Of a stretch of 64,000 nt of DNA, positions 58,674 through 61,253 are shown one piece after another (positions within the stretch are counted from its first letter, which is position 1; the number at the start of each line of letters is the position of its first letter). This stretch comes from Gemmatimonadetes bacterium 2013_60CM_65_52 (GTDB lineage Bacteria; Gemmatimonadota; Gemmatimonadetes; Gemmatimonadales; Gemmatimonadaceae). Under the pieces are notes generated by a model that ran no database searches, had not been told where the DNA came from, and saw nothing but the letters and a program-made list of their open reading frames with translations. The stretch is taken from NCBI GenBank assembly GCA_002215645.1, contig NGFI01000002.1, forward strand, positions 327,406 to 391,405. The letters are read 5' to 3'. Position numbers and translations under genes: made by a program.

Positions 58674-59150
58674 CTACCGCCCGATCACCCGCAAACGCCT
58701 GCGCAGCCGACGCGGAAGAAAAAACGCAGCGGCCGCGAGCGCCTCGCGAAGATTCAGGTCGGCAAGATCCTCCGCAGCGCCGCTCCAGTGTGCGAGCAGC
58801 ACGCTCCGCCCCGCGTTCGCCACCAACCGCTGGAGCGCGAGCACCAGGATGAAGACGTCATCGACCTCGCCGAGAAAGGGAATGAAATCCGGAATGAGAT
58901 CGATCGGCATCACGATGTACGCGATGGCGCCTCCAACGATCAGCTTGTCCACCATCGAGACGCGACGGTCCATGAGGAGTCCGCCCAGCAGACGGACGTA
59001 GTTCGGAAGCTGCCTGATGTAGTGGAGCACGGTGCGCTTGGCGCCGGTGCGCGGTGCGGGCGGTGCGGGCTCCGCTGTCGTCGCGCGCGATCCTGTCGAG
59101 CCGCGCCCACCCGCCGCGCGGCGCGCCTCTCCCCGACTCGTGGAACTCAT
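58674..59150 (-). CDS. YkvA-family (DUF1232) membrane protein
   Basis: 158 aa from ATG 59150 (a GTG at 59156 is possible). After a ~35-residue disordered Ala/Pro/Arg-rich N-terminus comes the DUF1232 core: KLIVGGAIAYIVMPIDLIPDFIPFLGEVDDV, whose PxDLIPDFIP motif is diagnostic. One or two short hydrophobic segments. Function of the family is unknown; it often sits near envelope genes. The preceding gene ends 12 bp away. Confidence 0.85.
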   Translation of the reverse strand: MSSTSRGEARRAAGGRGSTGSRATTAEPAPPAPRTGAKRTVLHYIRQLPNYVRLLGGLLMDRRVSMVDKLIVGGAIAYIVMPIDLIPDFIPFLGEVDDVFILVLALQRLVANAGRSVLLAHWSGAAEDLADLNLREALAAAAFFLPRRLRRRLRVIGR

Positions 59151-59162
59151 CGTCACCGCTGG

Positions 59163-59627
59163 CTACGAGGGGTTGATGCCGCCCGCTCCACTCGGCGGCG
59201 GCGAGCCGGGCGCATGTCCGCCCGCGTCCGGCGTGGCGCCTGCACTCGCACCACTCGTGCCGCCGGACTGATCCGGCGGAGACGAGCGGCCTACGGACAC
59301 CGCGGCGTCCACCACGCGATTGGTTGCCGTCATCAGATCGCTCGCGACCGACTTTCCCGCCGCGGCCGCGCCGCTCAGCACGCCCATCGCCTTGTTCATG
59401 AAGCCCATCGTCTCGGCGATCGTCGTCGCACTCACCTTTCCGGCGCGCAGCTTTTCCTCGACGGCGTCGGCAAACCGGCCCAGTGGATTCGTCGTCGTCG
59501 CACCCGGCATGGGGCGCTCCGCGTACTTCGACTCGAGGAAGTCCACGTAGTCGAGCACCTGGTACCCTCGCTCATCGGAGAGGGTCTCGAGCTTCTGCAG
59601 CAGCTTGTCGCGCAGATACGTGTTCAT
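59163..59627 (-). CDS. Hypothetical protein with helical N-terminus and Gly/Pro-rich tail
   Basis: 154 aa. The N-terminal ~35 residues (LLQKLETLSDERGYQVLDYVDFL) resemble DUF2281-like short helical domains. The middle is a predicted amphipathic helix and the last ~40 residues are Gly/Ser/Pro-rich and probably disordered. No signal peptide. Likely co-transcribed with the YkvA gene. Function unknown. Confidence 0.65.
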   Translation of the reverse strand: MNTYLRDKLLQKLETLSDERGYQVLDYVDFLESKYAERPMPGATTTNPLGRFADAVEEKLRAGKVSATTIAETMGFMNKAMGVLSGAAAAGKSVASDLMTATNRVVDAAVSVGRSSPPDQSGGTSGASAGATPDAGGHAPGSPPPSGAGGINPS

Positions 59628-59654: not shown

Positions 59655-60683
59655 TCACCCCTTCCAGCGTTTGCGCGTGCCGCGCGCGTCGATGTGGACG
59701 TACGGGGAAGGATAACGACGGCTCGTGTAGAGTCCGAGGCCGCCCATGAGCTCCGGATGTGCGTCCTCGACGCGCTCCACGGCGAGCGTCACGAGCAGGG
59801 CGTCCGTCATGGTAATGCGTCCGTCCCCATCCGCGTCGACGGCGATGTCGGCGGCGTCACCGTATTGATGGCGGCTGTCACTGGCGGCGCGAGGAACGCG
59901 CGCATTGTGCAGCGGCGTGCGGAACCCGGAGTGGATGTCCACGGCGAGTTGCGCGCGCACGTTTCCGCCGAGCTCCGCGAACACGAGCTCCAGCTTGTCG
60001 AGCAGCTTGGGATTCAGCGCCACGTACTTCGGCCACACGTCGCGCTGCTCGTCGTGCGTCACGAATGCCGCGAGACGCAGGTGCCGCGTGACCTGGAGAT
60101 CGAGATCCGCCTGTCGGACCTCGAGGAAGCCTGGAGGGTGCTCGCGATCTTCCCTGCCGAATCGCTCCGCCAGGTACGTCCCGATGCGATAGCCGTTCAG
60201 CCGGCCGGCGATCTTCTGGTCGAACGGCATCATCACCGCCAGCAGCGGCTCGGGGAGAATCTGATGCTCGGCGCCGTGTGACAGCGCCAAATGGTAGAAG
60301 CCCGGACGGGCTGGGGCGATGGTCGGGCCGGCGGTAAGGGGCCGCATCGGTGCGACCTCTCCCGAATCACCGACGGGAACCCAGGTATAGAGGAGGGAAT
60401 CATTCGCGCTCGGCACGTTCACCGGGAACTCGACGTCGCGCCCCGGCAGTGCAAAGCGGACCTTTACGTTGCCGCTCTGGCCGAAGGCGTCGGCCGCCGC
60501 GCTCGCGGTGACAAGCGGCTTGGGAGTCGCGACATGCGCGGCGAGTGTTCGCAGGGGTGTGGTGGGAACCATGTCGCCCGGCTTGAGAAACTGCACCGCC
60601 GCGACAGTGGCGAGACAGAAGAGCACGCCTGCGCCGATAGCGCCCACGGAGCCGGGCGTTTCGCGGGCCGCGGCGCTCTTCAC
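59655..60683 (-). CDS. M15-like peptidoglycan peptidase with an EF-hand loop
   Basis: 342 aa from GTG 60683 with GGGG just upstream; the frame extends further up but without protein-like sequence. A membrane anchor or signal (~13-33) is followed by a ~110-residue beta-rich domain, then a D,D-carboxypeptidase/DUF882-like domain: FRTPLHNARV, RHQYGDAADI (SxHxxGxAxD zinc motif) and PYVHIDARG. Directly after the zinc motif lies DADGDGRITMTD, a canonical EF-hand calcium loop, where family members have no such insert that I know of. Likely a periplasmic cell-wall enzyme possibly gated by calcium. Catalytic details need modelling. Confidence 0.78.
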   Translation of the reverse strand: MKSAAARETPGSVGAIGAGVLFCLATVAAVQFLKPGDMVPTTPLRTLAAHVATPKPLVTASAAADAFGQSGNVKVRFALPGRDVEFPVNVPSANDSLLYTWVPVGDSGEVAPMRPLTAGPTIAPARPGFYHLALSHGAEHQILPEPLLAVMMPFDQKIAGRLNGYRIGTYLAERFGREDREHPPGFLEVRQADLDLQVTRHLRLAAFVTHDEQRDVWPKYVALNPKLLDKLELVFAELGGNVRAQLAVDIHSGFRTPLHNARVPRAASDSRHQYGDAADIAVDADGDGRITMTDALLVTLAVERVEDAHPELMGGLGLYTSRRYPSPYVHIDARGTRKRWKG

Positions 60684-60945
60684 TGGGACCCCATGGCGCA
60701 GGAGCCCTGGGAGTGTCTTACAAGGCCCGCGCCTGGGCCGAGGGGACGGAAATCCTGCACTATTGGACTTGCCTCCTGTAGACGACGGGCGGACGAAGCA
60801 GGCTGAGACACCGGCCACGGAAACTTGTGCCCTCGGAGGGTGAGGAGGGCGGACCCTGCGCGAATCGGCCCGCGTGGTCCGATGCGCGTATTGGGTAAAT
60901 GTATTCATAGGAAAGACGAATCGGCGCCGCCATCGTCACGCATGC

Positions 60946-60963
60946 TGACTGGCCGGCCAGTCA
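60946..60963. promoter_or_regulatory. 18-bp perfect palindrome, possible operator
   Basis: TGACTGGCCGGCCAGTCA is fully self-complementary. It lies in the gap between two divergent genes, a likely spot for a dimeric repressor or activator site. Confidence 0.45.
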
Positions 60964-60976
60964 ACATCAGTACTTA

Positions 60977-61170
60977 GTACGAAGGCCAGTATCCGGAACT
61001 CGGCACTCTGTACGACGGCGTACGCGGTACGATGCGGAACAACGGCCGGCCCACCCATCAACCCGGTTTATTACTCACCCATCAACCCGGTTTATGGCTC
61101 ACCCATCAACCCGGTCTATACCAAGTACTCAGGATACCGGATGCCGGGTACCGGATACTGGCCTTCATAC
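60977..61170. repeat. 27-nt inverted repeat enclosing tandem repeats
   Basis: Left arm 60977-61003 and right arm 61144-61170 match in 24 of 27 positions when one is reverse-complemented. They enclose ~140 bp that includes the three 24-bp units. Could form a cruciform or a long RNA hairpin upstream of gpmI. Confidence 0.8.
61052..61123. repeat. Three tandem 24-bp units
   Basis: Units start at 61052, 61076 and 61100 and share CACCCATCAACCCGGT at their beginning. The last 4-7 bases vary. No spacers between units, so not a CRISPR. Confidence 0.92.
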
Positions 61171-61253
61171 CGTGTACTGCCGTTGTAGGTGTGCGCTTTG
61201 TCCGCGTAAGGCGGCCCGATACATTTCCGCCTCTCCTTTACCCCGACAAACTC

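Follow-up and report, generated by a model that had tools for sequence, protein, structure and literature searches.

The window (the whole 64,000-nt stretch of Gemmatimonadetes bacterium 2013_60CM_65_52 DNA that we analysed) carries at 59655-60683 the gene for a 342-aa protein that is probably a cell-wall-cutting zinc enzyme of this soil-type bacterium. Its features are collected in Table 1. The hydrophobic segment near the N-terminus looks, by its residues, like a membrane anchor, and the part that follows it (residues 54-152 of the structure model) matched Ig-like and similar beta chains at Z 5-7 (VIA-align). An alternative in-frame ATG at 60908 is possible and would give 417 aa; the closest relatives, which came from Gemmatimonadaceae and Gemmatimonadota genomes (80 loci kept of 111 relatives), align from about residue 1-25 of the 342-aa version. 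Directly downstream on the same strand (58674-59627) are two small genes encoding a DUF2281-like protein (below the cut-off) and a DUF1232 protein (Pfam), and a shared transcript with the peptidase gene is possible. Between the peptidase gene and the next gene, at 60962-61185, three direct repeats of 24 nt (CACCCATCAACCCGGTTTAT...) are flanked by the arms of an imperfect inverted repeat of 51 nt. Arms similar to these have 24 matches in the genome and the 24-nt unit occurs only here; the structure is perhaps a REP-like dispersed element.

Table 1 Features of the predicted peptidase gene in the window.
Feature	Protein residues	Window position	Strand	Description or basis
ORF	342 aa	59655..60683	-	GTG start, TGA stop; predicted to be a zinc peptidase of the envelope (M15/LAS) that has an EF-hand-type loop
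N-terminal hydrophobic helix	13-33	60585..60647	-	Predicted membrane anchor or signal; AlphaFold2 helix 12-32
Ig-like beta domain	about 56-151	60231..60518	-	VIA-align matches, model 54-152
M15/LAS catalytic domain	about 198-342	59658..60092	-	Pfam M15_3 above cut-off; structural matches
Zinc motif H272-x6-D279 (HQYGDAAD)	272-279	59847..59870	-	H and D invariant, 82/82; zinc role from the M15 family
EF-hand-type loop DADGDGRITMTD	283-294	59802..59837	-	Translation, conservation, strict-loop test
Post-loop helix ("F helix" of the half EF-hand)	292-308	59760..59810	-	Model helix 291-307, block pLDDT 96-98
Third zinc ligand H330 in HID	330-332	59688..59696	-	No change of H or D across the 82 rows

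The catalytic part was originally predicted to be an M15-like zinc peptidase, and both profile and structure comparisons agree. The protein passes the cut-off of Pfam Peptidase_M15_3 (PF08291; 26.1 versus 23.2 bits), and the catalytic part of its AlphaFold2 model (model residues 197-341; model numbers are one lower than those of the protein) is best matched by the M15 Zn DD-peptidase 1lbu, a muramoyl-pentapeptide carboxypeptidase, with Z 9.8 over 120 residues and an rmsd of 3.7. Further LAS-fold matches were LysECD7 (Z 8.6), ChiX (Z 8.0) and Hedgehog chains (Z about 7); Foldseek alone, run against solved structures, gave no match below E 0.001. The putative zinc ligands H272, D279 and, later in the chain, H330 are invariant in all 82 rows of the family alignment; zinc binding and a zinc-dependent peptidase activity are predicted, with peptidoglycan as the presumed substrate. 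In its motif layout the protein appears closest to the MepK/DUF882 branch. Escherichia coli MepK (YcbK; DUF882, Pfam Peptidase_M15_2) shares an SGYR-like motif, SxH-x6-D, GGxGxY...HxD and a final R-x-W, this C-terminal GGxGxY...HxD...R-x-W motif being recognizable in the alignment with E. coli and others, and hhalign aligned MepK with the family at E 1e-6 and a probability of 91 over 95 columns. The cut-offs of the MepK/DUF882 profiles were missed (PF05951, 22.6 versus 27 bits; NCBIfam NF053624, 20.4 versus 185). In the hhalign alignment the window protein is longer than MepK between the zinc motif and GGxGxY.

The loop DADGDGRITMTD lies between the zinc motif and the last HID as originally described (residues 272-279, 283-294 and 330-332). 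It had been said to follow RHQYGDAADI (residues 271-280) directly, which needs correction, as A281 and V282 intervene; it begins four residues past the zinc-ligand Asp of H-x6-D. The further statement that all EF-hand positions are satisfied holds in part: the loop has 12 residues with putative ligands at positions 1, 3, 5 and 12 and Gly at position 6, but it has Asp at position 12, where Glu is commoner, and is followed by Ala at position 13. The EF-hand pattern PROSITE PS00018 comprises 13 positions and is not matched by the loop because of this Ala; across the window we found no match to the full pattern and one match when only its first 12 positions were used. On the loop stretch, both Pfam Dockerin_1 (17.1 versus 22.9 bits) and EF-hand_5 (11.6 versus 25.9 bits) stayed below their cut-offs. 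A weak Dockerin_1 match recurs in 32 of the 82 family members, at E up to 0.1, and dockerins turn up when the PDB is searched with a profile, only at E 0.05-0.4. The strict loop occurs once across the six frames of the window, where composition would lead one to expect 0.255 (200 shuffles of 597 ORFs), i.e., it is not rare, and 23 of 20,000 shuffles of the window protein itself bore one. A single motif match is thus modest evidence, and conservation among homologs has to decide.

Alignment A1, the 82 rows of which were chosen by similarity and zinc motif irrespective of the loop, reaches down to 32% identity to the window protein. The putative calcium ligands are kept in 80-82 of these rows: Asp at position 1 and Asn or Asp at position 3 (81/82 each), Asp, Asn or Ser at position 5 (82/82), Gly at position 6 (80/82), Thr, Asp, Asn or Ser at position 9 (82/82), and Asp at position 12 (D294) in every row, as invariant as the zinc ligands. 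Positions 10 and 11 are variable, the most frequent residue accounting for at most 14 and 30 of the 82 rows, respectively. The possibility that the loop is absent from all homologs is thereby dismissed, and so is a chance motif. The Asp codons alternate between GAC and GAT (69/35 at position 1 and 78/26 at position 12); the 104 rows used for this count were selected by the loop test, and their amino acid counts therefore prove nothing on conservation. Nor is the protein an oddity of a single genome, as 131 of 298 genomes of the phylum have a family match at E 1e-6.

We further took a census of the distinct ORFs of the fetched Gemmatimonadota loci that have an M15 motif and an upstream SGFR-like motif (n = 195). 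The strict loop was present in 182 of them, starting four residues past the zinc Asp in 108, four of which have a second loop, and only 12-14 residues past it in 74. The remaining 13 lack a strict loop; by our reading of the rows, six belong to other M15 branches (L113, L114, L116, L118, L135 and L219) and the other seven are part of the family but have a damaged loop, which implies that calcium is not indispensable everywhere. To judge from these sequences, the loop is kept across the whole protein family, which spreads over the phylum.

A paralog family with two loops is likewise spread over the phylum. In 47 of the 80 loci (among L033-L112, e.g., L037 and L102) the gene immediately upstream, in the same orientation, encodes a paralog of this type; in the window genome the paralog sits on another contig (C9) and not beside the window gene. 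In many of the two-loop-type paralogs (L018, L077, L082 and similar ones) the first of the loops has decayed to VVNGxRDWMSDLN and the second is strict. In a tree of 112 catalytic domains, the loop family groups together (support 97/92), with a misplaced viral row, P0002, inside; we disregarded the place of this viral protein because its branch length of 7.13 was flagged as unsafe. The single-loop group (support 98/97) includes the window gene and otherwise contains only rows from the same taxonomic family or records titled Gemmatimonadaceae, Gemmatimonadota or the like, and the two-loop group also includes rows from one further family within the order and from three further families within the class.

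AlphaFold2 on alignment A1 gave a model with pLDDT 90.4 and pTM 0.83, in which a strand (model residues 276-281) is followed by the loop and a helix (291-307), with a block pLDDT of 97-98 around the loop. Along the chain the loop is not far from the active site, since it starts four residues past the Asp, where the predicted strand carrying this residue ends. The arrangement is strand-loop-helix and not helix-loop-helix, and since no entering helix is present we regard the loop as a half EF-hand of the dockerin-like kind. The paralog model (pLDDT 83.8) shares this layout, with a strand at 266-271, a longer loop and a helix at 290-306. The strict loop begins 12-14 instead of four residues past the Asp in the paralogs and its register to the helix is fixed, which indicates that it is tied to the helix and not to the distance from the zinc.

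Outside the phylum, the EF loop was absent from all nine readable relatives in a set of 12 plasmid loci, including E. coli MepK (L256, L264 and L265 had no readable motif and were dropped). It was also absent, by eye, from the 31 viral loci with a readable motif among 32 family-related ones, and a phage origin was rejected, P0001 having no match among 50,697 phage or 72,556 plasmid records (E 0.001). In addition, we scanned viral DNA for the zinc motif with a loop; of the 17 stretches obtained, which were selected by the motif itself, 16 gave a translated row and L230 gave none. Two kinds of phage M15 endolysin in this motif-selected set have a complete DxDxDG loop in the corresponding place. 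One is an M15_3 protein, identical in L235 and L237 and counted as one case, with the loop at the same hinge; the other is a Ply500-like group (L224, L232, L233, L234 and L239, with L232-L234 judged by eye), to which L250, with Asn at loop position 1, also belongs. Two database relatives of the Ply500-like group at 58-63% identity have no loop, pointing to gain or loss within this group. L225, L231 and L236 were rejected as GC-rich frames that probably match by chance, and L226, L227, L228, L229, L238 and L240 were not counted, being M15-like with no acid at loop position 12. The phage loops may be independent of the Gemmatimonadota loop, judging by their different M15 branches and not by a tree. 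An insertion point used recurrently is therefore conceivable; that the hinge after the Asp is a general calcium control site, with separate gains in Gemmatimonadota and at least two phage endolysin lineages, seems to us a rather unlikely extension of it. EF-like loops are reportedly known in other lysins.

A calcium switch in the active region of a cell-wall peptidase had been considered new, and here the published record limits the claim. EndoT5, the L-alanyl-D-glutamate peptidase of phage T5 (M15C), has a regulatory calcium loop, which calcium fixes so that the active site opens (PMC10487532). That loop (W114, G118, residue 121) lies between the zinc ligands D73 and H133, about 40 residues past the Asp, compared with four in the window protein. 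Sonic Hedgehog and BacHh have the LAS fold with calcium near the zinc, and the calcium ligands given for Hedgehog (E90, E91, D96, E127, D130 and D132) precede the zinc ligand H141 (PMC4102407), whereas the window loop is C-terminal to its zinc Asp. Bacterial M15A enzymes other than BacHh are stated to lack the Hh-type calcium centre (PMC8052667). The published sites (EndoT5, Hedgehog/BacHh: PMC10487532, PMC4102407, PMC8052667) thus occupy other chain positions. 1lbu, the only M15 structure that a sequence search retrieved, shares the fold and has the motif SRHMYGHAAD, yet has no DxDxDG after the zinc motif in the aligned stretch. The dockerin type I half-repeat shares D-x-[DN]-x-DG-x-[IV]-x3-D followed by a helix; the window protein differs from it in having one embedded loop, below the Pfam cut-off. 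A literature search by titles and the first lines of abstracts, with subscription journals mostly outside its range, returned no EF-hand loop at such a position in an M15 peptidase. Relative to the literature found, what is new is the half EF-hand right after the M15 zinc-ligand Asp, together with its doubling in paralogs.

On balance, we favour the view that the protein is an envelope peptidase of M15/LAS type, anchored in the membrane, with an inserted dockerin-like half EF-hand, and that Ca2+ mainly stabilizes the active-site scaffold. The loop would be inserted between the strand bearing Asp279, the zinc ligand, and the helix that follows, and its residues suggest that it binds calcium, with D283, D285, D287, the backbone around 289, T291 or a water, and D294 as the most likely ligands. 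The bound Ca2+ would cap the helix and pin the strand, thereby fixing the strand-to-helix hinge and with it the scaffold of the active site, and in a periplasm that contains calcium the site would usually be occupied. Dockerin-like sites generally bind calcium well and calcium is usually plentiful in the envelope; for these reasons, and because the loop register is fixed to the helix and not to the zinc Asp, a structural role appears more plausible than a switching one. That Ca2+ instead shifts the strand or helix beside Asp279 and so turns the peptidase on and off strikes us as unlikely, even with the loop beginning only four residues past a zinc ligand: the loop lies at a different distance from the zinc Asp in the paralogs, and with plentiful envelope calcium a dockerin-like site would be filled. 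There is precedent for a switch on the same fold, since fixation of its calcium loop on the domain activates EndoT5 (PMC10487532) and, in a model of Hedgehog, a second calcium shifts the zinc centre (PMC4102407), but these calcium sites lie elsewhere in the chain.

It is less likely still that no calcium is involved and that the acidic loop is just a conserved turn, caps a helix or holds another ion, e.g., Mg2+ or Mn2+. Some family members do lose ligands, and the calcium reading is weakened by the Pfam EF-hand and dockerin scores below cut-off, by the Ala at position 13 and by the presence of half a hand only; a turn, however, would not need Asp at position 1, Asp or Asn at 3 and 5, Gly at 6 and Asp at 12 jointly in 80-82 of 82 rows. 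Dockerins have two loop-helix repeats, the recognition residues of which lie around positions 10-11, and the weak Dockerin_1 matches mentioned above could hint at a half-site that binds another protein, e.g., a scaffold or regulator. We consider such a use very improbable, as positions 10-11 vary in the family and the modelled loop is embedded in the catalytic domain. For PepX, a bacterial peptidase of another fold, little effect of chelator or added calcium and an inactive double Asp mutant are reported (PMC10536834), which illustrates that the role of such loops is uncertain.

Enzymes that cut peptidoglycan must be kept in check. A metal loop beside the catalytic zinc, present in a phylum-wide family and doubled in a paralog, is a candidate way to brace or tune such an enzyme, and the window loop would add a third calcium position on this fold to the two published for EndoT5 and for Hedgehog/BacHh.
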